Below, piece after piece: positions 3,860 to 44,806 of a stretch of DNA of 49,216 nucleotides. The stretch comes from Bacteroidota bacterium. Its GTDB lineage: Bacteria > Bacteroidota > Bacteroidia > B-17B0 > Aurantibacillaceae. Numbering within the stretch: position 1 is the first letter of the stretch; each line of letters begins with the position of its first letter. Below the pieces are notes generated by a model. That model made no database searches and was not told the origin of the DNA. It saw only the letters and a list, made by a program, of their open reading frames with translations. The translations under genes and the position numbers were made by a program. Location of the stretch: assembly GCA_013298715.1 (NCBI GenBank), contig JAAFIQ010000023.1:1-49216 (forward strand), read 5' to 3'.

Positions 3860-5169
3860 TGAGTGTACAAAAAAACGATAAAAAAACGATTAGAGCTTGG
3901 ACTCTTTATGATTGGGCCAACTCTGTGTTTCCATTGGTTATTACTTCGGCTATTTTTCCTGTTTTTTATGAAACAGTTACGGCCAAGGTAGCCGACGCTG
4001 ATGGCTTGATTAATTATTATGGCATGCATTTAAAAAACGATGTAATTTATTCGTTCACCTATTCTTTTGCGTTATTGATTGTTGTGTTAACAGCTCCAGT
4101 TCTATCTGGTATTGCTGATGTTTATGGGAATAAAAAAACGTTTTTAAGATTGTTTTGTACTTTGGGTGCAGTGTCAGTTTCTACATTGTTTTTTTTCGAT
4201 GCAAATCATTTAGAACTTAGTTTACTTTCGTTAGTGTTTGCAACAATCGGTTTTTGGAGTAGCTTGGTATACTACAATTCTTACCTACCAGAAATTGCAA
4301 CCACGGATTTACAGGATTCTGTTTCAGCAAAAGGTTTTTCAATGGGCTACTTAGGAAGCTCGTTGTTACTCATAATTTGTATTGTGTTTATAAATCTTAC
4401 AAAAAGCGATACATTCAAACCTGTTTACTACTGCTTTTTATTGGTTGGTATTTGGTGGTTTGGTTTTGCACAATATACTTTAAAAATATTACCAAATAGT
4501 GTTTCAAATGCCAGGCAAGCCAATAAAAGTGCTTTAACCAATGGTTTTTTAGAAATTAAAAAGGTATGGTTAAGTTTAAAAGATTTACCAATGCTTAAAA
4601 AGTATTTGAGTTCGTATTTCTTTTTTAACATGGGTGTACAAACTGTTATGGTAATGGCAGTACTATTTGCCAGTAAAGAAATTTATTGGGGCGAAGGCGA
4701 AGAAGCATCAACGGCAAAAACAAAAACGTTAACATTAAGTATTTTATTAATTCAGTTTTTAGGAATAGCTGGTTCGTATTTATTTTCAAAACTATCTAAA
4801 AAAGTTGGAAATATAAAAGCATTAAGCATGGCTATTTTTATTTGGGTGTTTATTTGTGTTTTTACTTTTATAGTTGTTCGATTGCCGTTTCATTTTTATA
4901 TAGTAGCTGCCTTGGTAGGCTTTGTAATGGGAGGTATACAAGCCCTATCGCGAAGTACCTATTCTAAATTTTTACCAAATGATGATGATTTAACGAGTTA
5001 CTTTAGTTTTTATGACGTAATGGAAAAATTAGGGATGATATTTGGTACTATGAGCTTTGGCATAATCAGTCAGCTCTTTGGGATGCGAAATTCTGTTTTG
5101 GCTCTAATTTTATTTTTTGTACTTGGCTTTATTTTATTATTGCGAGTTAAACAAACTAAAGTTGAGTAA
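3859..5169 (+). CDS. UMF1-type (Atg22-like) MFS transporter
   Basis: 436 residues with about twelve hydrophobic segments, an integral inner-membrane protein. The N-terminal signature RAWTLYDWANSVFPLVI and the A-loop-like SGIADVYGNKK are typical of the UMF1/Atg22-like group of the major facilitator superfamily. A second conserved patch, GGIQALSRSTYSKFLP, lies in the C-terminal half. The substrate is not known for bacterial members and nothing here identifies one. The ATG overlaps the murF stop by one base (TAATG), indicating an operon with murF, but that does not prove a cell-wall role. Confidence 0.85.
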   Translation: MSVQKNDKKTIRAWTLYDWANSVFPLVITSAIFPVFYETVTAKVADADGLINYYGMHLKNDVIYSFTYSFALLIVVLTAPVLSGIADVYGNKKTFLRLFCTLGAVSVSTLFFFDANHLELSLLSLVFATIGFWSSLVYYNSYLPEIATTDLQDSVSAKGFSMGYLGSSLLLIICIVFINLTKSDTFKPVYYCFLLVGIWWFGFAQYTLKILPNSVSNARQANKSALTNGFLEIKKVWLSLKDLPMLKKYLSSYFFFNMGVQTVMVMAVLFASKEIYWGEGEEASTAKTKTLTLSILLIQFLGIAGSYLFSKLSKKVGNIKALSMAIFIWVFICVFTFIVVRLPFHFYIVAALVGFVMGGIQALSRSTYSKFLPNDDDLTSYFSFYDVMEKLGMIFGTMSFGIISQLFGMRNSVLALILFFVLGFILLLRVKQTKVE

Positions 5170-5210
5170 CGCCAGCAAATTTTGGCATTATACTTGTGTA
5201 CTTTTAATTG

Positions 5211-6374
5211 GTGAGATTTTTATTTCTTTTCATATTCATTATAAATATTGCTTCAACTAAAGCGCAGTTAACTTATAATGTAAGTAGTCTGCAATTAGGA
5301 ACTATAGCCGAAGCCAACGAAATAAAGGGTGATCTTATTTTGAAAAACGATGCGTCTAAAAAAATATTCTTAATGCGAGCCGATTCCGAACTTGGTGTAA
5401 AAATATATGCTTCTAAAAAAACCTTGCAACCTAATGATACCTGTTTATTGGTTATTAGTTTTATCCCAAACGAAACAGGAAAATTCTCTAAAAAAATTAA
5501 GTTAATTACTAGTGATGCTGAAAAGCCTTATTTGCTTGAGTTACAGGGCAAACTAGAAAAATTAACCACCGATAATAAAATGGCCTGTTTTTATTTTGGA
5601 AGTCAAAAGCGAAGTAATGTAAAAGTAAAAGACGAACCAATTGTAATTAAAGAACCTACTACTCCAAGAGATAATAGTAATAAAATTCCTGATAATTCTT
5701 CACAGCCAAATCCAACAACAGTTGTGGCGACAAGCCCTTCAATAGTTACAACAAGTATTCCAACAAAAACAATTGCATCAACAAATACTACCAATATAAA
5801 TCCAAACGAAATTTCAAATTCAGAATACAAACCAAACAACATTGTTTTTTTAATTGATGTAAGTAATTCCATGAAAGATTCATTAAAATTTCCTGCAATG
5901 AAAAAAGCCTTACATGTTTTAATTGATGCGATTAGAGAGGTTGATTATATTACGTTAATTACTTACGCCGATACTGTAAAAGTAATACAAGAAAAAATTA
6001 GCGGAAAAAATAAAACAGTTTTGCATGCTATGGTAACTTTAATGAAAGCAAAAGGACAAACAAAAGGAAATAAGGCCATTTTAAAGGCTCAGCAAGTTAC
6101 TCAAGATGGTTATATAATAGGAGGTAATAATCAAATATTTTTGTGTACAGATGGTAAGTTTAGTTTTCATGAAAAAGATCAGACTAAGTTTAAACAAAAT
6201 CAGGGTGCAAAGCCAATTGTGTTAAGTACTGTGGCTTTTGGAAAAGATAAAGAAGCTATGTTGAATTTAAAAGATATTTCAAAATTAGGCAATGGCAGTT
6301 TTATTCATATAAAAAATACCGCAAGTGATACGGATAAATTGTTAGAAGAGGTAAAGTTGAGAAGTAAAATTTAA
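5211..6374 (+). CDS. Secreted protein: DUF1573-like Ig domain plus von Willebrand A domain
   Basis: About 387 residues. No ATG is available after the in-frame TAA at 5205-5207; the start is GTG 5211 or the TTG just before it, and both give a good signal peptide (FLFLFIFIINIASTKAQ). Residues about 20-115 look like an Ig-like domain of the DUF1573/ASPM-Hydin type (LQLGTIAEANEIKGDLILKN, then PNDTCLLVISFIPNETGKF). A Thr/Asn/Pro-rich linker of about 60 residues follows. Residues about 205-387 are a vWA domain: NIVFLIDVSNSMKDS gives the MIDAS DxSxS motif, and FLCTDGKF supplies the late Asp. It is probably a periplasmic or surface metal-dependent binding protein; the partner is unknown. It sits 38 bases after the transporter gene and converges on selO with a 3-base gap. 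Confidence 0.75.
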   Translation: MRFLFLFIFIINIASTKAQLTYNVSSLQLGTIAEANEIKGDLILKNDASKKIFLMRADSELGVKIYASKKTLQPNDTCLLVISFIPNETGKFSKKIKLITSDAEKPYLLELQGKLEKLTTDNKMACFYFGSQKRSNVKVKDEPIVIKEPTTPRDNSNKIPDNSSQPNPTTVVATSPSIVTTSIPTKTIASTNTTNINPNEISNSEYKPNNIVFLIDVSNSMKDSLKFPAMKKALHVLIDAIREVDYITLITYADTVKVIQEKISGKNKTVLHAMVTLMKAKGQTKGNKAILKAQQVTQDGYIIGGNNQIFLCTDGKFSFHEKDQTKFKQNQGAKPIVLSTVAFGKDKEAMLNLKDISKLGNGSFIHIKNTASDTDKLLEEVKLRSKI

Positions 6375-6377
6375 TAA

Positions 6378-7829
6378 CTAAGTTCCACAATATGTAACAT
6401 AGCCTTCAAAATTTTTGGGCGATAGTTCAATTAATTCTGAATAATTTTTTTCTAAATCATATTGTTTTTTTAGTTTTGCCAATAAGTTTGTAAAGGCGCT
6501 GTAATCATTATTATTTGTAGCTTTCTCTAGTGCTTCTTCAACTAAATGATTGCGTGGAATGTATATTGGATTGCATAATTTCATTTTTTCTAAAGTAACT
6601 TCTAAACTGATATTTTGATTAAGTAAAAGTTGTTTCCATTTACTTTTTAAATCTCTAAAAAGTGTAGTTGAATAATTCTCATTTAAACTTGGTACAGATT
6701 CTTGTAACATTAAAAATGATTGGGTATAATCTAAATTATGTTGTCTTAAAAACGATAAAAATTCTTTTACAAAAATTTCTTCTCCGCTTCCTTTCATGCA
6801 ATACTTAAATCCGAATTTATTTCCATACATGATTAGCCAATTGCTGTAATACAATTCAGGGAAATTACTTAATACATTCGTACATAAATCTATGGCTTCT
6901 TTTTCATCATCAGCAATAGCGGGCAAAAGCGCTTCAGCCAACCTACATAAATTCCAATAAATAATTTTTCCTTGGTTCCCAAAAGCGTATCGGCCTTGCT
7001 CATCAATAGAACTAAACACGGTATCTAAATTATATTCGTTCATAAAGGCACAGGGTCCGTAATCTATTGTTTCGCCCGAAATAGTTGTGTTGTCAGTATT
7101 CATAACGCCGTGTACAAAGCCAACACGTATCCAATTGCAAACTAGTTTAATTTGTTCATCTATCAATTGTTTTAACAAATAAAGGGCTACATTTTTTTCT
7201 ACTTTTAAATGAGGATAATGCCTGTTTACAGTATATTCAACTAATTCAATTACCTGTTTTTTTTCACCAAAATAGCGCGCATATTCAAAGGTTCCAACCC
7301 TTATATGGCTGGCAGCAACACGTGTAAGCACAGCACCTTGTTCAATTTTTTCGCGATAAACAGGCGCATTCGTTTTTATAACGGCTAAACTTCTTGAGGT
7401 TGGAATACCTAAGTAATGCATACTTTCGCTTATTAAGTATTCTCTAAGCATTGCTTTTAAAGCAGCTTTTCCATCTCCTCTTCTTGAATAGGGCGTAATG
7501 CCAGCACCTTTTAACTGAATATCAACGAGTTTATTTGTTGTTAGTTTATGTTCGCCTAATAAAATTGCTCGTCCATCGCCTAACATAGTAAAGTGCCCAA
7601 ACTGATGCCCTGCATAGGCTTGAGCTATGGGTTCAGAATTATTAAATAATTTTGTTCCTGAAAAAAAATGGGCTAACTCTTTGGTTGAAATAGTTTTTAT
7701 ATTCAGATTTAATTCTTCTGCTAACTCGTAATTAAATAAAGCTAATTCAGGATTATCGTATGTTTGAGGTAGTTGATTCTTGAAAAAAAAATCTGATAAG
7801 CTTTTGTAAGTATGTATAAAGTTGAACAT
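6378..7829 (-). CDS. selO: SelO/YdiU family protein adenylyltransferase
   Basis: 483 residues. SelO is a pseudokinase-fold enzyme that transfers AMP from ATP to protein hydroxyls and is linked in bacteria to redox stress. The conserved core is intact: AQAYAGHQFGHFTMLGDGRA, the lysine in IQLKGAGITPYSRRGDGKAA, REYLISESMHYLGIPTSRSL, REKIEQGAVLTRVAASHIRVGTFEYA, the MNTDNTTISGETIDYGPCAFM segment carrying the metal-binding residues, and the C-terminal YCGT. No selenocysteine is apparent; the C-terminal cysteine is near the end as in other bacterial forms. It is a single-gene unit divergent from the M16 peptidase gene. Confidence 0.92.
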   Translation of the reverse strand: MFNFIHTYKSLSDFFFKNQLPQTYDNPELALFNYELAEELNLNIKTISTKELAHFFSGTKLFNNSEPIAQAYAGHQFGHFTMLGDGRAILLGEHKLTTNKLVDIQLKGAGITPYSRRGDGKAALKAMLREYLISESMHYLGIPTSRSLAVIKTNAPVYREKIEQGAVLTRVAASHIRVGTFEYARYFGEKKQVIELVEYTVNRHYPHLKVEKNVALYLLKQLIDEQIKLVCNWIRVGFVHGVMNTDNTTISGETIDYGPCAFMNEYNLDTVFSSIDEQGRYAFGNQGKIIYWNLCRLAEALLPAIADDEKEAIDLCTNVLSNFPELYYSNWLIMYGNKFGFKYCMKGSGEEIFVKEFLSFLRQHNLDYTQSFLMLQESVPSLNENYSTTLFRDLKSKWKQLLLNQNISLEVTLEKMKLCNPIYIPRNHLVEEALEKATNNNDYSAFTNLLAKLKKQYDLEKNYSELIELSPKNFEGYVTYCGT

Positions 7830-7908
7830 GAGTTATAAATTTTAAAGTTAAGCAGATATTAGAAATATATGGTCTAATTTCACAAAAAAACTTAACTTAG
7901 GGCTTGAT

Positions 7909-9147
7909 ATGATTAACTTTTCGAAATTTAAACTTAGTAATAATTTAACTGTGATTCATCATTATGATAAAAGCACGCCAATGGTATGCTTAAACATTTT
8001 GTATGATGTAGGTGCCAGAGATGAAGACGAAAATAGAACAGGATTTGCTCATTTGTTTGAACATTTAATGTTTGGTGGAAGTATTAATATTCCTAATTAC
8101 GATGAGCCTTTACAGCTTGTTGGTGGAGAGAATAATGCCTTTACTACCAACGATATTACAAATTATTATTGCACCGTTCCAGCAGATAATATTGAAACTG
8201 CATTTTGGTTAGAGAGCGATAGAATGTTGAGTTTGGCTTTTACCGATAAGAGTTTGGAAGTACAGCGTAATGTAGTAATTGAGGAATTTAAACAGCGTTA
8301 TTTGAATCAACCTTATGGCGATGTTTGGTTGTTATTGCGCCCATTAATTTACAAAGTACATCCCTACAAATGGGCTACAATTGGCAAAGAAATTAGCCAT
8401 ATTGAAAATGTTACTATGGATGATGTAAAGTCTTTTTTTAAAACTCATTACAATCCAAGTAATGCAATTATGGTTGTGGCAGGCAATATTGATTTAGATA
8501 CCGTAAAATCATTGAGCGAAAAATGGTTTGGTCCAATTGAGGCAGGAATAAAACCAAAACGTAATTTACCTGTTGAACCACAACAAACAGAGGCGAGGAA
8601 ATTAGTAGTTGAACGTGATGTACCTGCAAGCGCTATATACAAGGCCTACCACATGTGTTCTAGATTCGATGAGGAGTACCACACGGTTGACATTGTTTCA
8701 GATATTTTGAGTAGAGGAAACTCGAGTAGGCTATATAAAAGCTTAGTAAAAGAGAAACAATTGTTCAATGAGATTAATGCTTACGTAATGGGAGATTTTG
8801 ATAAAGGTTTATTTGTTGTGAGTGGTAAAATTGCTGATGGTGTTGATATTTACGAAGCTGAAAAAGAAATTATTGCTGAGCTAGAAAAAATAAAAACAGT
8901 ATTAGTAGATGAAGTTGAATTACTAAAATGTAAAAATAAAATTGAAAGTACTGTAACGTTTAGTGAAACCGATGTACTTACAAAAGCCACTAATTTAGCT
9001 ATTAGTGAATTGCTTGGAGATGCAGACTTAATAAATAAAGAGATTGAAAATTATGCTAAAGTTACGCGTGAAGGTATAATGGAACAAGCAAATAAAATTT
9101 TAGTTGAAAGTAATTGCAGTACACTCTATTATTTAGCAAAAAAATAA
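7909..9147 (+). CDS. M16 family zinc metallopeptidase, catalytic subunit
   Basis: 412 residues, the length of a single M16B half-protease. The inverted zinc motif HxxEH is complete at residues 48-52 (HLFEHLMFGG), and the third ligand falls in VVIEEFKQR around E125. The C-terminal half has the M16_C pattern (HTVDIVSDILSRGNSSRLYKSLV). There is no signal peptide, so it is probably cytoplasmic or exported by an unseen route. M16B proteases usually act as heterodimers with a non-catalytic partner; that partner is encoded 2.8 kb downstream (11973-13253). The next gene starts 2 bases after the stop. Confidence 0.92.
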   Translation: MINFSKFKLSNNLTVIHHYDKSTPMVCLNILYDVGARDEDENRTGFAHLFEHLMFGGSINIPNYDEPLQLVGGENNAFTTNDITNYYCTVPADNIETAFWLESDRMLSLAFTDKSLEVQRNVVIEEFKQRYLNQPYGDVWLLLRPLIYKVHPYKWATIGKEISHIENVTMDDVKSFFKTHYNPSNAIMVVAGNIDLDTVKSLSEKWFGPIEAGIKPKRNLPVEPQQTEARKLVVERDVPASAIYKAYHMCSRFDEEYHTVDIVSDILSRGNSSRLYKSLVKEKQLFNEINAYVMGDFDKGLFVVSGKIADGVDIYEAEKEIIAELEKIKTVLVDEVELLKCKNKIESTVTFSETDVLTKATNLAISELLGDADLINKEIENYAKVTREGIMEQANKILVESNCSTLYYLAKK

Positions 9148-27949: not shown

Positions 27950-30895
27950 TTAAAAATTTAGTGGTACAAATATTTCTACTTTTGTTCCGCAATCATTGCT
28001 ATTATTATCCTTTAGGTCAATAATATTAACGTTTAAGTCAGAACCATTTATTTCATTTAATATTTTTAATCTATCCTGAGTTATTTTCATACCTAAGGAT
28101 TTGTGTTTTTTTCCGGGCATGGTGTGTTTTATTAGCGACGATTTATCTCTACCAATTCCATTATCAGTAATGGTGCAAATTAATAAATTATTTTTACAAC
28201 TTAAATGAATTGTTAAAAGACCTGTTTCTGGTTTTGGATTAAGTCCGTGTAAAATAGCATTTTCTACATAAGGTTGCATTAAAAGTGGAGGCATAATATC
28301 ATAATCAACATCAACAGAATTATCTACCTTAATATCGTATTCGAATTTGCCTTCAAAGCGCATCTGTTCTAATTCTAAATACAGTTTAAGTGCTTCTAAA
28401 TCTTCTTCAACCGTAACTGTTGGTTTATCGCTGTTGTTTAAAATAATGCGCACAAGGCGCGCAAATTTATTTAAGTATTTAATTGCCTCATCTGTTTTAC
28501 TATTAAAAATGTAATGTTGTATAGAGTTAAGTGAATTAAAAATAAAATGCGGATTCATTTGTGAACGAAGTGCTTTCAATTCAATTTTACTCATTTCAAC
28601 TTTTCTATCGAACTCAATTTTTTGTTTTTTCTTAAATCCTCGTACGCGAATTGAGAAAATTAGAACAACCACAAAAACGATTAAAAAAATTAGAAGTGTT
28701 ACAAACCACCATGTAAGGTAAAATGGCGGTAAAATTGTAAATGTAAAAGTTGTTTCATTATCACTCCAAAGCTCTTCATTATTGCAACATTTTACTCTAA
28801 AGGTATACTTTCCTGGAGCTAAGTTAGCATACTTACTATAATCTTCACTAGACGCATTACTCCATGTTTTTTCTAAGCCTTCTAATTTTTTTAAATATTT
28901 TACTTTATCTGGGTTGGTAAGGCAAATGCCACGGTAATGAATGGCGATTGAATTCATATTGTAAGGTAATTTGCAATTATTTGCTAATAAAGTATCTCCA
29001 CCAGCCAAATTAAATTTTTGAATTTGTGTAACCGGAATTAAGGTATTCGTTTTTATACTAAAGGGTTCATGTTTAATAATTCCACTTACGGTGCCAAACC
29101 AAACGCTTCCATCTTTATCTTCCCATATTCCGTTGGAATTACATTCTATACCTAGAAATCCGTCTTGTTTGCCAAAGGGTTTTACTGAAATAAAATTTGA
29201 ATTTACATATTTTTCTATATCAAATTTGTTTACGCCTTGGTTAGTGCCGAGCCATAAATTCTTTTTATTTTCTGTAAATTCAACCGAGTATACATAATCT
29301 GAATTTAACCCATTTTCTTCTGTAATGTAGGTTAGCGCTTTGGTGTTAATATCAAAAACTGATAAGCCGTTAAAGCTACCACTTAATAGTTTTCCTTTGT
29401 GATACTTTATTGAGAAAAAATTTTCTTCAGTTAAGTTAAATTCTTTGTTGGCGCTGTAAACTGTTTTATTTTTGAGATAAAATAGGCCGTTACCATAGGT
29501 TCCAACCCATAACTTACCAGTGTCATCAAAAGTAAAACCGTAAACACTATAACTTTGCTTTTTTGGAAGTTCATAAGTTTCGCTCTCAATTATTTTACCA
29601 TTAACAAGTTTAATTTTACAGAAGCAACAATTACCTCCAATAAATATTGTTTCACCATCATTGGTATACATACAATCGTAAGGCCCAACAATATTTGATG
29701 GTAATTTTAGTTCATTAAACTTTTCATTATTACAAAGCATTACCCCATTCTCAAATCCAAATAACACATTGTCATTTTTGCATTGAACAATGCTTCTACA
29801 AACGTTGGATATAAGTCCATCGCCTAAACCAAAACGTTTAAAGTAACCTTGGGTGTATTTATAAATGCCGTTATTTTCTGAACATAGCCAAAGATTATCT
29901 TTACTATCGCGCATTACGCCAAACACAAAAGCATTACCAGGCCCATTTACTTTATCAAAACTAATAAACGCATTATCTCTGTATTTGTATAAACCGCTAT
30001 GTGTGCCAATCCATAAATTATTTTCTTTATCAACGGTGAGGCTTCTTACAAAATTAGAATTGTTATCAAATCCAATATTGTAATAGTAAAATTGTTTTCC
30101 ATCGTATTTTAATAGACCCGAGTGTGAGCCAACCCAAAGAAAATTGTTTTGTTTTGCAAGCACTGTAATATTCTCATCAATTAAACCATTTTCAACAAAG
30201 TAGTTTGTTATTTTATTTGATTCTAAATCTAAGAAACTTAAACCTTTCGATGAGGCAATTACCAATTGGTCTTGAAAAAATTCTAAATTATTTATTTGAT
30301 TTGAAGGCAGGCCATTGCTTAATCCTATCCGTTTAAGCGATTTATTTTCAATAATAATTAAGCCTTCATCTGTTCCAACAAAAAGAGTTTGGTTATTACT
30401 TTTGATGATGCAATTTATTTTTAAGTTATTTAATTTTTGAACGGCTGAAATAGAATTGTTGTCATAAACAAATAAACCTTTTGTTGTACCAATAAAAAGT
30501 TGACTATTTAAACCATTGCATAAGCATGTTATGTTGGCATTAAAGTTTGAGAAAGCATTATTTTTGTAAATAGTATTATTTTTTACAAGGTTAATACCTT
30601 TGTTTGTTCCAACAAAAATAAAGCCACTATCGTTTTCGCAAAGCGCATTTACGTTATTATCTATCAATCCATTTTTTTTGCTGAAATTTTTAAACACTAT
30701 ACCGTCAAAAGCGCTTAGTCCGCCATAGCCGCCGCTCCATAAGTAACCTTGGTTATCTTGAAATAAACAAGATACTTGCACAAAGGGTAAACCATTTTCA
30801 GCACTATAGTTTTTAAAATAATATTGTTGGGCATTGGTAGCTAAGCAAGCAACAATAAATATAAAAATGAATATATTTTTAAAGTTGTAGATAAT
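27950..30895 (-). CDS. Propeller-domain LytS-type sensor histidine kinase
   Basis: About 981 residues if begun at ATT 30895. The first canonical start (GTG 30781) would remove the signal peptide and half of the first blade. The frame upstream of the GTG encodes IFIFIFIVACLATNAQ and then YSAENGLPFVQV, the classic first blade of two-component propellers. Domains in order: signal peptide; about fourteen two-component-propeller blades (repeated LWIGTHSGLYKY-type units) to about residue 620; a Y_Y_Y Ig-like domain (NLAPGKYTFRVKC); one membrane helix (WWFVTLLIFLIVFVVVLIFS); a His_kinase domain with MNPHFIFNSLNSIQHYIF; and an HATPase with PYVENAILHGL and DNGIG. It senses periplasmic signals and signals to the LytTR regulator. 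True start uncertain: AUU, or ATG 30914 if one T is missing from a T-run. Confidence 0.85.
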   Translation of the reverse strand: MIYNFKNIFIFIFIVACLATNAQQYYFKNYSAENGLPFVQVSCLFQDNQGYLWSGGYGGLSAFDGIVFKNFSKKNGLIDNNVNALCENDSGFIFVGTNKGINLVKNNTIYKNNAFSNFNANITCLCNGLNSQLFIGTTKGLFVYDNNSISAVQKLNNLKINCIIKSNNQTLFVGTDEGLIIIENKSLKRIGLSNGLPSNQINNLEFFQDQLVIASSKGLSFLDLESNKITNYFVENGLIDENITVLAKQNNFLWVGSHSGLLKYDGKQFYYYNIGFDNNSNFVRSLTVDKENNLWIGTHSGLYKYRDNAFISFDKVNGPGNAFVFGVMRDSKDNLWLCSENNGIYKYTQGYFKRFGLGDGLISNVCRSIVQCKNDNVLFGFENGVMLCNNEKFNELKLPSNIVGPYDCMYTNDGETIFIGGNCCFCKIKLVNGKIIESETYELPKKQSYSVYGFTFDDTGKLWVGTYGNGLFYLKNKTVYSANKEFNLTEENFFSIKYHKGKLLSGSFNGLSVFDINTKALTYITEENGLNSDYVYSVEFTENKKNLWLGTNQGVNKFDIEKYVNSNFISVKPFGKQDGFLGIECNSNGIWEDKDGSVWFGTVSGIIKHEPFSIKTNTLIPVTQIQKFNLAGGDTLLANNCKLPYNMNSIAIHYRGICLTNPDKVKYLKKLEGLEKTWSNASSEDYSKYANLAPGKYTFRVKCCNNEELWSDNETTFTFTILPPFYLTWWFVTLLIFLIVFVVVLIFSIRVRGFKKKQKIEFDRKVEMSKIELKALRSQMNPHFIFNSLNSIQHYIFNSKTDEAIKYLNKFARLVRIILNNSDKPTVTVEEDLEALKLYLELEQMRFEGKFEYDIKVDNSVDVDYDIMPPLLMQPYVENAILHGLNPKPETGLLTIHLSCKNNLLICTITDNGIGRDKSSLIKHTMPGKKHKSLGMKITQDRLKILNEINGSDLNVNIIDLKDNNSNDCGTKVEIFVPLNF

Positions 30896-30985: not shown

Positions 30986-31624
30986 CTAGTGTATTAAATA
31001 AATAACACTAAAAAAGAAGACTAAGAGTGAAAAAATTAATAAAGCATTTTTAAATTTTTTGGTTTCAAAGTAATTACCAAAAATAAACGCCATTAAAAAA
31101 GAAATAACAAACCAACCAAAATAGTTATGCAAGCCAGCTAGTCCATATTTAAAATACCAATAATCTAAAGTAGGAGCAACTTGTTCTATTATTAAATCCA
31201 CGCTTGTAGCAAGGCTTGCAGCAATGAATGAGTATACTATTTTATTTCTGCTAATTTTTTTAGCGAGAATTATTGCTGCGCATGCCATTAATGCCCAATT
31301 AAACGAAATTACAACAGGTACATTATAAATTTTTATTCCTAAAGCATTGCCATATTTATAAGGTCCAAATATGTAACCTGTTTTAACACCAATAACTTCA
31401 AAAGCAAAACCAATTAACGCAATGAGTAAAAACGAAATTAAGAACCGAAAATTTCGTTTAGAATCGGTTTGGTATAAAATAAAAACAAAACAGGTAAACA
31501 AAATTGTAAAAGGTGTAAAGGGTTTAAAAAAGTTAGGGTAGTAACAAAAACCAAAACTTCCAAATAGGTACATTAATACCAAAAGAATGAGCGCATTTCT
31601 TTTATTAAAAATCTTAGTTATCAT
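30986..31624 (-). CDS. cruF: CruF-like carotenoid 1,2-hydratase (DUF422)
   Basis: 212 residues, seven to eight membrane segments. The DUF422/COG2324 carotenoid-biosynthesis signature is present: FEVIGVKTGYIFGPYKYGNALG, then NVPVVISFNWALMA, and DLIIEQVAPTLDYW. CruF-type enzymes add water across the end double bond of acyclic carotenoid psi ends, giving 1-hydroxy products in myxol, saproxanthin or flexixanthin-type pathways. The ATG overlaps the crtD stop region by 11 bases. The neighbouring CrtD supports this function over a generic membrane protein. Confidence 0.82.
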   Translation of the reverse strand: MITKIFNKRNALILLVLMYLFGSFGFCYYPNFFKPFTPFTILFTCFVFILYQTDSKRNFRFLISFLLIALIGFAFEVIGVKTGYIFGPYKYGNALGIKIYNVPVVISFNWALMACAAIILAKKISRNKIVYSFIAASLATSVDLIIEQVAPTLDYWYFKYGLAGLHNYFGWFVISFLMAFIFGNYFETKKFKNALLIFSLLVFFFSVIYLIH

Positions 31625-33086
31625 TTACTATTAATTCACTAACAATTTTGCCGCTCAATAAACTCAATGGAATACCACCGCCTGGATGCACACTGCCGCC
31701 TGCAAAATATAAGCCTTTTATTTTTGAACTGTAGTTGGCATGCCTTAAAAAAGCTGAAAATTTATTGTTACTCGAATTACCATATAATGAGCCACCAAAC
31801 GATCCCGTTTGAATTTCAATGCCGTAAGGGTCTAAAATTTCTTCACAAACAATTAAATCGTTCAAATCTACTTTTAAAATGCGGTTTAATTTTGCAATCA
31901 CATTTTTTTTAAGCTCCTCCTTGTAATTTATTTCTTTTTGAGATTTATTATGTGGCGCATTAACCATAACAAACCAATTCTCACAACCCTGCGGAGCATC
32001 GTTTTTGCAATATTTGCTACTTATATTAACATAAATTGTTGGATCATGGTATGGCTTGTTGCTATTAAAAAGATCGGTAAACTCCTGCTCATAATTTTCG
32101 CTAAAAAAAATGTTATGCAAATCCAATTCAGCGAATTGTTTTTGCATGCCCCAATAAAAAATAAAGGCGCTACTCGATTTTTCTTGTGCCAATAATTTTT
32201 TTGGAGTGTACTTTTTCTCTAACAACTTATTATATACCAAGTGCATATCCGCATCGCTCACTATAATATCTGCAGGATAATCTCCTGAAGCTGTTTTTAA
32301 ATAACGAACGCTATCGTTTTCTAATTCAATATGATGCACTTCGCAATTAAACAAAAATTCAACGCCTAAATTCGCCGCACATTCCACTAATTTATTTGTT
32401 ATATCTATCATGCCGTTTTTAGGAATATAAGCCCCTAAATTAAACTCCAGATGTGGTATAATATTTAATAATGCCGGTGCCTTATAAGGATTACTGCCAT
32501 TGTAAGTAGCGTATCTATTAAATAATTGAATGGTTTTTTTGTTTTTAAATTTTTTACTATTTGCTTGGTGCATGGTAGTAAACAATTGTAATTTGTAACT
32601 ATTTAAAATGCCTTTAATAGTTGAGAGGTTAAAAAAGTTTTTGAGTTTGTGTAAACTTTTTTCTAAAAATATTGGAGCGGTAGTTTCATAAAAAAATTTA
32701 CTTTGCTCTAAATGTTTTTCTATGGTTATGGGGTCTTCGTTAAGTTTTAGCTGTAACTCAGTTGCAAATTTTTTTGTCTCAGAGAACGATTTTACAACCG
32801 TACCATCTTCAAAAAAATAGTGGGTTAAAACGTCGAGTTTTTTATATTCAAAATCAATTTTTTTTGGCGACAATTTCAATAAATCATCAACTAAATTTGG
32901 TAATGTAAAAAGTGATGGTCCTTTATCAAATCTAAAATTGTTTAACTCTAAATTACAAAGTTTGCCTCCAGGGTAATTGTTTTTCTCAAGAATTTTTACG
33001 CCGTAGCCCGCATTTGCCAACCTAATTGCGGTGGCTAAAGCACCCATACCACTTCCAATTATAACTACTTTTTTACCGATTTTAAT
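31614..33086 (-). CDS. crtD: CrtD-like 1-hydroxycarotenoid 3,4-desaturase, apparent ATT start
   Basis: 490 residues if begun at ATT 33086. The only downstream ATG (33047) lies inside the FAD-binding glycine motif: the upstream 13 codons encode KIGKKVVIIGSG, completing the Rossmann GSGMGALATAIRLA at residues 11-13. No ATG, GTG or TTG lies between the in-frame TAA and that point. Family sequence continues with EKNNYPGGKLCNLELNNFRFDKGPSLFTLP, characteristic of CrtD, and ends in the FAD-binding GLYFAGGSVHPGGGIPLSLLSG. It removes hydrogens at C3-C4 of 1-hydroxy carotenoids and works with CruF. It is divergent from crtI. Assignment to the CrtI/CrtD superfamily is certain; CrtD specifically is likely from context. 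Confidence 0.85.
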   Translation of the reverse strand: MKIGKKVVIIGSGMGALATAIRLANAGYGVKILEKNNYPGGKLCNLELNNFRFDKGPSLFTLPNLVDDLLKLSPKKIDFEYKKLDVLTHYFFEDGTVVKSFSETKKFATELQLKLNEDPITIEKHLEQSKFFYETTAPIFLEKSLHKLKNFFNLSTIKGILNSYKLQLFTTMHQANSKKFKNKKTIQLFNRYATYNGSNPYKAPALLNIIPHLEFNLGAYIPKNGMIDITNKLVECAANLGVEFLFNCEVHHIELENDSVRYLKTASGDYPADIIVSDADMHLVYNKLLEKKYTPKKLLAQEKSSSAFIFYWGMQKQFAELDLHNIFFSENYEQEFTDLFNSNKPYHDPTIYVNISSKYCKNDAPQGCENWFVMVNAPHNKSQKEINYKEELKKNVIAKLNRILKVDLNDLIVCEEILDPYGIEIQTGSFGGSLYGNSSNNKFSAFLRHANYSSKIKGLYFAGGSVHPGGGIPLSLLSGKIVSELIVNDN

Positions 33087-33106
33087 TTTGTTTAACCTAC
33101 TTTAAA

Positions 33107-33114
33107 CAAAATTA
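33107..33114 (-). promoter_or_regulatory. Candidate -7 box for crtD-cruF
   Basis: On the minus strand TAATTTTG fits TAnnTTTG and lies 20 bases before the ATT start of crtD. No TTTG at the -33 distance. Divergent crtI starts 28 bases further on, so the two transcripts would originate within about 60 bases. Confidence 0.35.
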
Positions 33115-33141
33115 CAGTTCTTTTGTTTAATAAGGAACACA

Positions 33142-34617
33142 ATGAACAACAAAGTTAGTATAATCGGTGCTGGTTTTTCAGGCTTATCCTCGGCTTGTTA
33201 TTTAGCCAAAATGGGCTACAATGTTACTGTTTATGAAAAACATAACCAAGTTGGAGGCAGAGCAAGGATTTTGAAAGAAGAAGGCTTTACTTTTGATATG
33301 GGGCCTAGTTGGTACTGGATGCCAGATGTGTTTGAACGATTTTTTGCAGATTTTGGAAAAAAAGTTAGTGATTACTATACATTAAAACGTCTATCTCCGG
33401 GTTATAGGGTGTTTTTTGAGAAAGATCAAATAGATATTCCATCTAATTTAGAAGAGCTTTATCAACTTTTCGATAAAATAGAAAGCGGAAGTTCTATAAA
33501 ATTAAAAGAATTTTTAAAGGAAGCAGAATACAAATACCAAGTAGGTATTCATGATTTGGTTTATAAACCAGGTGTTAATATCTCTGAATTGTTTGATGCA
33601 AAATTAATTAAAGGATTATTTAAACTCGATGTATTTAAAAGCATGAGTTCGCACATCCGTAAACTTTTTAAGGATGAAAGGCTTATTCAAATTTTAGAAT
33701 TTCCGGTTCTGTTTTTGGGTGCATTGCCTGGTAATACGCCTGCATTATATAGCTTAATGAATTACGCCGACTTGGTTTTAGGTACCTGGTATCCTGAAGG
33801 CGGCATGGGAAAAATTGCTGAAGGCATGCATAAATTAGCTTTAGGACTTGGTGTTAATTTTGAATTGAATGCTGATATTAGTAAGATAAATGTTGAGAAT
33901 AGCGTTGCAAAAACTATTACCACAAACATTAATTACAATGGATTTAGCGCTTTAATTTCGAGTGCAGATTATAATTTTACCGAACAAAAACTTTTAAATA
34001 AAGAGTTTCATCAATACAGCACAGATTACTGGGAAACCCGTAAAATGGCACCAAGCAGCCTCATATTTTATTTAGGAGTAAAAGGAGAAGTTAAAAATTT
34101 ATTGCATCATAATTTGTTTTTTGACGAAGATTTTGGGGTGCATGCATCTGAAATTTATACGCACCCTAAATGGCCAAGCAAACCATTGTTTTATGTTTGT
34201 AATCCATCCAAAACAGATAATACTGTTGCCCCAGAAGGATTTGAAAACATTTTTATTTTAATACCAATAGCACCTGGCCTAACCGAAAATACTGAGCTGG
34301 TAGAACATTACTACAATTTGGTGATGGAAAGATTAGAAATGAAAACAGGTTCAACCATCAAATCAAATGTGGTTTACAAAAAAGTATTTTCTCCAAAAAA
34401 TTTTATTGCAGATTACAATTCTTTTAAAGGTAATGCTTATGGTTTAGCAAATACCTTAATGCAAACTGCACATTTAAAACCGAGTATAAAAAATAAAAAA
34501 GTAAAAAATTTGTTCTACGCTGGTCAACTCACTGTGCCTGGCCCTGGGGTTCCACCTGCACTAATTTCGGGTAAATTGGCGGCAGACCAAGTACATCATT
34601 ATCTAACTAAAAAATAA
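33142..34617 (+). CDS. crtI: Phytoene desaturase
   Basis: 491 residues, typical for CrtI. Converts phytoene to lycopene by successive dehydrogenation. FAD-binding start VSIIGAGFSGLSSACYLAKMGY, then EKHNQVGGRARI and the substrate-side MGPSWYWMPDVFERFF. The C-terminal FAD motif is NLFYAGQLTVPGPGVPPALISGKLAA. It begins the plus-strand carotenoid operon crtI-crtB-unknown-idi, 16 bases before crtB, and is a paralogue of crtD across the divergent promoter region. Confidence 0.95.
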   Translation: MNNKVSIIGAGFSGLSSACYLAKMGYNVTVYEKHNQVGGRARILKEEGFTFDMGPSWYWMPDVFERFFADFGKKVSDYYTLKRLSPGYRVFFEKDQIDIPSNLEELYQLFDKIESGSSIKLKEFLKEAEYKYQVGIHDLVYKPGVNISELFDAKLIKGLFKLDVFKSMSSHIRKLFKDERLIQILEFPVLFLGALPGNTPALYSLMNYADLVLGTWYPEGGMGKIAEGMHKLALGLGVNFELNADISKINVENSVAKTITTNINYNGFSALISSADYNFTEQKLLNKEFHQYSTDYWETRKMAPSSLIFYLGVKGEVKNLLHHNLFFDEDFGVHASEIYTHPKWPSKPLFYVCNPSKTDNTVAPEGFENIFILIPIAPGLTENTELVEHYYNLVMERLEMKTGSTIKSNVVYKKVFSPKNFIADYNSFKGNAYGLANTLMQTAHLKPSIKNKKVKNLFYAGQLTVPGPGVPPALISGKLAADQVHHYLTKK

Positions 34618-43605: not shown

Positions 43606-43690
43606 AATGCATTTTTTATTCTTTTCATGTTACATTTCAATATAAATACTGATTTTATTAAGCTTGTAGAATATAAATAATTCAAAACAT

Positions 43691-44806
43691 ATTTATTTTA
43701 ACGGACTAAACAGTTTACGCTTTTTTGCAGCTTTGGCCGTGATTATTACTCATGTTGAATTATTTAAAGGTAACTTTGGTTTCACAAGTTATTGGAGCAA
43801 CCCTTTCTTTTTTAGTCTAGGAAGCTTAGCTGTTTATTTTTTCTTCGTTCTTAGCGGATTTTTAATAACTTATTTATTACTAATCGAAAAAGAAAAATTT
43901 GGTAAAATAGAAATTAGAAAATTTTATTTTAGGAGAATTTTAAGGATATGGCCACTGTATTACCTTATTTTAATTATTGGTTTTTTTGTGTTGCCTCAAT
44001 TCAATTTGTTTAAAATTGGCTATTTAGAAGATAGTTTCTATCAAAATTTTTCGTTTAATCTCCTATTGTATCTTTTAATACTTCCAAATGTTGCCTTTTC
44101 CCTCTTCCCATCAGTCCCTTATATTGGTCAAGCCTGGTCTATAGGGGTTGAAGAACAATTTTATATTATTTGGCCATTGCTACTCTCAAAGAGTAAATCA
44201 ATTATTAAAACAATGCTGATTATTATTTTTGTTTTAGTTTTTTTTAAGATACTTGTTTTACTATTAGGTAAATTTTCTGCTACTACTTTTTGGTATGAGC
44301 CTTTAAAATTATTAGTAGCTATGTCAAAGTTTGAATGTATGGCTATTGGAGGGATTGGGGCTTATTTATTGTATACTAATAATAGTTTGTTACGTATAAT
44401 TTATATGCCATTGGTTTTTTTGGTATCCATTTTAGTTTCAATTTTACTAATTTATTTTACTCCAGATAGGTTACAAGATGGTATTCATTTGGTATATTCT
44501 ATATTATTTCTTCAAATTATTCTTTTTGTAGCAAAGCAACAATCATCTTCATTGTTTGAGAATAAACTTTTTAATTATTTAGGAAAAATTTCTTATGGAA
44601 TTTATATGTATCACTTTATGGTAATTCCATTTTGTTTAAACATTTACTTAAAGCATTTCGCTTTCAACTCTATTGTATTAGAAAATTTATTTATTTATGG
44701 AGCAACTATTTTAATTACCCTCCTCATGTCTGCAATATCTTACACATTTTTTGAAAGCAGGTTCATAAAATTAAAATCGCAGTATGCGCGCGTAAAATCT
44801 GGCTAA
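43691..44806 (+). CDS. Acyltransferase 3 family membrane protein, no canonical start codon
   Basis: About 371 residues if begun at ATT 43691. The first canonical start (TTG 43733) falls inside the conserved first motif. The frame upstream encodes YFNGLNSLRFFAAL, matching the (Y/F)xxLxxLRFxAA start of acyltransferase-3 enzymes (OafA-like), with the catalytic His in ITHVEL. Before that the frame has only ATA 43673 after a TAG at 43667. About ten membrane segments; typical internal motifs FFVLSGFLITYLL, RRILRIWPLYYL, and QAWSIGVEEQFYIIWPLLL are present. It transfers acetyl or other acyl groups to an exported glycan or lipid; the target is unknown. Confidence 0.82.
   Translation: MYFNGLNSLRFFAALAVIITHVELFKGNFGFTSYWSNPFFFSLGSLAVYFFFVLSGFLITYLLLIEKEKFGKIEIRKFYFRRILRIWPLYYLILIIGFFVLPQFNLFKIGYLEDSFYQNFSFNLLLYLLILPNVAFSLFPSVPYIGQAWSIGVEEQFYIIWPLLLSKSKSIIKTMLIIIFVLVFFKILVLLLGKFSATTFWYEPLKLLVAMSKFECMAIGGIGAYLLYTNNSLLRIIYMPLVFLVSILVSILLIYFTPDRLQDGIHLVYSILFLQIILFVAKQQSSSLFENKLFNYLGKISYGIYMYHFMVIPFCLNIYLKHFAFNSIVLENLFIYGATILITLLMSAISYTFFESRFIKLKSQYARVKSG

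Follow-up and report, generated by a model that had tools for sequence, protein, structure and literature searches.

Apparent AUH start codon, probably AUC, of the carotenoid desaturase gene crtD in a Bacteroidota genome and its near relatives

The crtD gene in the DNA analysed here (the window, that is, the whole stretch of 49,216 nucleotides from a Bacteroidota genome) appears to be translated from a near-cognate AUH codon (AUU, AUC or AUA), most likely the AUC at 33080-33078 of the minus strand, with the AUU at 33086 as a second choice. We propose that the crtD mRNA carries a short, A-rich leader devoid of a Shine-Dalgarno (SD) sequence, that the initiator tRNA would read the AUH codon as fMet at a reduced efficiency, and that the lowered initiation would limit the dose of the CrtD desaturase, the weak start seemingly being kept and not merely tolerated. 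Taken as a whole, we judge this reading to be probable. Among its parts, an AUH start as such is well supported by related genes and the choice of AUC 33080-33078 over AUU 33086 moderately so; it is from comparison of sequences that we infer initiation at the AUH codon, its low efficiency and the selection for it. Selection on a weak start, limiting or regulating the desaturase dose, is suggested by a class of codons that is shared while its letters vary.

The crtD frame (minus strand) contains no ATG, GTG or TTG from its upstream end at the in-frame TAA (33104-33102) down to the ATG at 33047-33045, which is the first canonical in-frame codon and the start chosen by the ORF tool, and which lies within the FAD-binding GxGxxG motif (GSGMGA). 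The sequence-only reading had described the frame in these terms, and our re-reading confirmed it. After the TAA the minus strand reads AGT AGG TTA AAC AAA, then ATT (33086-33084), AAA, ATC (33080-33078) and GGT AAA AAA, followed by GTA GTT ATA ATT (strand beta-1), GGA AGT GGT and the ATG; the ATT and the ATC are thus the near-cognate codons ahead of strand beta-1. A GTG at 33140-33138 is in the same frame but is separated from the gene by the TAA. In the other two frames, over the 60 codons before the motif, canonical codons that open an ORF extending beyond the TAA are limited to three TTGs, at -86, -53 and -2, with the ORFs from -86 and -53 both ending at -38, ahead of ATT 33086 (-30) and ATC 33080 (-24). 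No ATG with an ORF passing the TAA was found within that range; the sequence-only reading had stated that no upstream ATG in another frame could be rescued by a single indel.

The gene itself (31614-33080, minus strand, as read from the best-supported AUC) is CrtD according to the NF042421 profile (601.5 bits versus a curated cut-off of 500), a predicted 1-hydroxycarotenoid 3,4-desaturase, and it has carotenoid neighbours (cruF, crtI and phytoene synthase). A divergent crtI-type desaturase gene with an ordinary ATG start occupies 33142-34617 on the plus strand (NF058655, 726 bits), and a cruF-like carotenoid hydratase gene (30986-31624, minus strand), also starting with ATG, overlaps the end of crtD. 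The latter scores above the cut-off of PF04240 and at 76.6 bits with TIGR03460, under the cut-off of 154.7 for this model; the cruF and phytoene synthase genes were both recognised by Pfam and both remained under NCBIfam cut-offs.

To place the start in context, we gathered crtD loci from contigs of named genomes (80 kept of 503 confirmed loci) and from genomes of the same genus and order; the order search gave a crtD match in 37 of 87 genomes, and loci were obtained for 30 of 38 listed places. As near rows we took those CrtD sequences from the same family that are at least 58% identical to the window CrtD, 17 in all, 13 of them in the genus (G000, G036, G033, G027, G016, G013, G060, G004, G005, G012, G061, G031, G030) and four from two other genera (G093, G105, G074, G075); family places outside the start counts are G071, G108, G099, G104, G082 and a second G091 copy. 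The comparison set was derived from 128 loci by removing those with no match at 1e-90, the 17 near rows, their six named-contig copies and identical copies, which left 93.

Twelve of the 17 near rows have no ATG, GTG or TTG in the 12 codons upstream of the FAD GxG motif, and in nine of these 12 there is not a single canonical codon anywhere from the stop to the motif. Another four rows (G027, G074, G075, G031) have TTG only, while the remaining one (G005) has an ATG, at -12, a position filled by ATA in its sister G004. In the comparison set, on the other hand, all 93 distinct crtD rows have a canonical start at -5 to -15 codons from the motif (86 ATG, 7 GTG/TTG). The contrast of 12/17 versus 0/93 rows without a canonical start corresponds to a Fisher p of ~2e-12, a value that is descriptive only since the rows are related. 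The near-row frames are open and full-length, at 58-63% identity, and their start codons are AUU, AUC, AUA, CUG or UUG but hardly ever AUG, which is one step away. These alignments point to a non-AUG crtD state common to near relatives, in agreement with the non-AUG start that had been read from the window alone; the aligned starts of relatives are not all ATG. A crtD match was obtained in 16 of the 40 genus genomes, and three of the 16 (G001, G019, G024) speak against a genus-wide rule, their crtD having canonical starts; these copies are more distant (47-50% identity) and fall outside the 17 near rows. The sharing of an odd start by distant relatives suggests a low-dose or regulated start. 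The divergent crtI is present in 15 of the 17 near-row loci, with an ATG start in 12, GTG in two (G074, G075) and TTG in one (G030).

A 45-row IQ-TREE of CrtD (L066, with an in-frame stop within its tblastn match, was left out) requires five changes for the label "no canonical start", compared to a mean of 10.7 for shuffled labels, and none of 500 shuffles gave a value as low. The 17 near rows form a grade and not one clade, with ATG rows nested among them, and resolution is poor at the base, the ATG-starting G024 (a long branch) being placed in the same fork as the near rows; a tree with these features would fit gain as well as loss of the non-AUG start, in differing numbers of changes. The sister of the window is G036 (support 97/82).

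The upstream context is of the type expected for SD-independent initiation, as the sequence-only reading had proposed from the A-rich letters around the start. No SD sequence was found in the near-row crtD leaders: the duplex energy, computed with an assumed anti-SD tail, is -3.6 kcal/mol or weaker in 17/17, for comparison with -10.9 kcal/mol for infC of the same genome. The folding energy around the 17 starts is 0 to -2.6 kcal/mol, and an A occupies position -3 in 12 of the 17 rows, given our start choices; A at -3 is favoured in Flavobacterium johnsoniae (PMC6847099). Between the divergent genes, an inverted repeat, TTAAACAA-N13-TTGTTTAA (33102-33130), is the sole match in the window, against 0.02 expected. 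Allowing one mismatch in each half, it recurs in 13 of the 17 near rows, the window being counted among them; the spacer is 13 in 12 of the 13 and 12 in the other. In the rows that have it, 14-34 nt separate the TTG in the right half from the putative crtD start, a distance that bears on whether the mRNA might be leaderless. Within this region TAATTTTG (33107-33114, minus strand) fits the Bacteroidetes -7 promoter consensus TAnnTTTG (PMC7366714) and is a candidate -7 box for crtD. An exact box of this type is present at a similar place in only four of the 17 rows (G000, G036, G027, G030), hence the assignment of the crtD promoter is offered as a proposal.

The choice between the two candidate codons rests on columns, which we count in codons upstream from the FAD motif. 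Column -8, where the window has ATC 33080-33078, is ATT or ATC in nine of the 12 rows without a canonical start, and it is the place where other rows most often have ATG (of the other tree rows, n = 27, 14 have ATG there, one TTG and none AUH). Column -7 is AUH in five of the 12, two of these five (G013 and G060) having no AUH at -8, and G016 offers CTG at -9 as its sole candidate. Two caveats apply to this pattern: the frames of G093, G004 and G105 are open further upstream, and the Ile at -8 of these rows may be an internal residue like any other; and G005 carries an ATG upstream of its ATT. The sequence-only reading had put the start exactly at ATT 33086 (33086-33084, column -10), which would give the N-terminus MKIGKKVVIIGSG, and here our result departs from it. 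That codon has A at -3 and at -6, and G033 likewise has AUH at -10; yet column -10 is AUH in only 2/10 rows versus 9/12 for column -8, and the sister G036 has a stop at -10 and ATC at -8, so that in this relative AUC in that column alone is usable. Measured from the candidate -7 box, moreover, the leader would be ~14-17 nt to AUU 33086 and ~20-23 nt to AUC 33080, with most B. thetaiotaomicron mRNAs reported to have a leader of 23 nt (PMC7366714). A plus-strand copy of the TAATTTTG box at 33083-33090 overlaps ATT 33086, and a crtI promoter element overlapping the start region of crtD may explain the letters of this ATT. It is the column -8 pattern and the stop in G036 that lead us to place the start at AUC 33080-33078, with AUU 33086 as second choice; a start at exactly AUU 33086 we regard as unlikely.

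Non-AUG initiation is apparently not limited to crtD. A sensor kinase gene (Reg_prop, Y_Y_Y and His_kinase domains; 27950-30895, minus strand), located after cruF and 0.7 kb downstream of crtD, is alike in that no ATG, GTG or TTG occurs among its first 68 codons past the in-frame stop; the ORF tool starts it at GTG 30781, and a signal peptide sits upstream of this codon. The likely start is ATT 30895-30893 or ATC 30892-30890. The codon 21 positions before a conserved QQY is AUH in 21 of 30 genus orthologues and ATG in four. By a stricter motif, which excludes L275, a canonical start is missing from the start region of 14 of 29 genus orthologues, another eight have a GTG nearby together with AUH at -21, and seven have ATG. 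The SD energy at the 21 AUH sites is -3.9 or weaker in 20 and -7.9 in one. In genus g33 of the same family (19 loci, of which the partial L385 lacks the N-terminus), an ATG stands 20-30 codons before QQY in 18/18 readable rows, including G093 and G105, whose crtD starts are AUH. Two more cases are scattered. An acyltransferase-3 gene (43673-44806, plus strand) has an apparent ATA start at 43673, where most orthologues have ATG, GTG or TTG; of its orthologues L305 has ATA as well, and L302 has ATC with a TTG two codons upstream. A Lgt-like gene (L192:15439-16206, minus strand) has ATC where four of six orthologues have ATG and one TTG. These two AUH starts look like drift.

AUH starts appear usable in this order, as judged from infC, which in the genome under study reads ACGGAGGTAACT-ATC (L183, C9:55000-57000, minus strand), with a strong GGAGGT SD before the AUC; the parallel to infC drawn in the sequence-only reading thus extends to this very genome. 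A search recovered infC from 78 of the order's 87 genomes, and a tally by eye of the best 30 infC loci gave 23 ATT/ATC, five ATG, one TTG and one cut by a contig end, with a GGAGG core preceding 22 of the 23 AUH starts. This layout fits the known control of infC. A strong SD at infC is unusual in a phylum that hides its anti-SD.

The genome as a whole gave no sign of a general habit. When 829 kb from the genome under study were scanned for coding potential, 54 of the 666 genes that scored high were flagged, with no genus excess (18/274 in G030, 15/161 in G057 and 2/71 in G050), and most of the flags, when sorted by eye, looked like fragments, edges or noise. A small homology scan produced AUH candidates for 4/98 ORFs in G000, 4/84 in G030, 0/35 in G057 and 3/24 in G050. 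A wider one gave 82/301 genus versus 86/305 control ORFs, a comparison confounded by conserved non-coding DNA between near relatives and with a genus set biased by several loci having been chosen for genes without a start, and on which we rest no conclusion. A genome-wide AUH excess received no support from the scans. An unusual initiator tRNA was considered as a cause and rejected: the genome gave 30 tRNA matches, and ARAGORN, applied to 24 of these loci and to 59 stretches of the genome sample, showed three tRNAs with a CAT anticodon; L352, which we take to be the initiator because GGG/CCC pairs in the anticodon stem are its usual mark, looks normal, with nothing odd seen.

How far these data favour a weak start that is kept depends on the remaining explanations. 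AUH starts could be tolerated in the lineage and drift neutrally, crtD being one scattered case of no regulatory meaning; the sporadic AUH starts of the Lgt-like and acyltransferase genes are what one would expect on this account, and since the near rows make up a grade and canonical starts occur in three genomes of the genus, we have slightly reduced our confidence in a kept weak start and raised that in drift. Against drift, AUH prevails over many genomes in both crtD and the sensor kinase, and scans able to reveal a general AUH habit gave no excess over other genomes. On balance we consider neutral drift somewhat unlikely. An error of sequencing or assembly, or a pseudogene, might be suspected in draft assemblies with AUG only one substitution away; the recurrence of such a start in 12 different genomes and the full-length open frames at the identities given above make it scarcely credible, and six of the 17 rows match named contigs (by identity and codons) with six accession prefixes. 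That the odd start is no sequence error had been argued earlier from the window alone, and these genomes bear the argument out. It is also highly improbable that the N-terminus arises by a frameshift from an upstream ORF, or by readthrough of TAA 33104 from GTG 33140, which does lie in frame above it: the 17 near rows show no recurring ORF in another frame upstream, a promoter-like box stands between GTG 33140 and the start, and the position of the stop varies among relatives.

A small number of bacterial genes are known to have conserved AUU, AUC or AUA starts, among them infC, which encodes IF3 and is autoregulated through IF3 from its AUU/AUC/AUA start, and E. coli pcnB, which has an AUU start. 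Both resemble crtD in having a conserved near-cognate AUH in place of AUG, with the difference that infC here has a strong SD and crtD none. The control of infC is mentioned in a study (PMC13009471) that describes conserved non-canonical starts lowering initiation in S. aureus cvfC1 (AUU) and ccpN (AUA), the latter being common to S. aureus and B. subtilis. These are cellular genes of other kinds with a conserved non-canonical start, as is crtD, but their sites have extended SD pairing, which according to the authors aids the weak codon (PMC13009471), whereas crtD has no SD. The Kozak-like SD-less initiation of F. johnsoniae (PMC6847099) is similar to that proposed for crtD in its A at -3 and low structure at the start; the main text of that paper, on the other hand, makes no mention of AUU, GUG, non-AUG or noncanonical starts. 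Compared with the known AUH starts, the present case appears to differ in lacking an SD, in its phylum, and in a codon that varies while staying within the non-AUG class. We found no report of starts of this kind for crtD or in Bacteroidota in a literature search that covered few subscription journals.

A weak start common to deeply diverged relatives, in one metabolic gene and one sensor kinase of a phylum largely without SD, would be a natural setting for testing how ribosomes of this type select among start codons and grade them. A link of crtD to IF3 would be a conjecture by analogy with infC. One may go further and imagine that crtD, the Reg_prop sensor kinase and further SD-less genes form a translational regulon through their weak AUH starts, with an output that would follow the amount of IF3 or the stringency of initiation, and with infC, which combines AUC with a rare strong SD, acting as its sensor; we hold this to be speculative and quite unlikely, and, if true, it would mean a regulon encoded in start codons, in a phylum with ribosomes that hide the anti-SD. 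Of more immediate consequence, gene callers restricted to ATG, GTG and TTG truncate proteins of this kind: crtD is cut within its FAD-binding motif, and the sensor kinase would lose its signal peptide.

A few further loci came up along the way. A DUF4129-like label for L172:18408 was dropped, with no match in Pfam and orthologue starts too unclear to count. At L167 (~4934-5423, plus strand) a RelE-like toxin and a preceding antitoxin-like ORF, both named by eye, have no canonical start at the expected N-terminus, and at L173 (~7299-7970, minus strand) a signal-peptide-like N-terminus without a canonical start has a TATTTTTG box just upstream of an ATT and an ATC.
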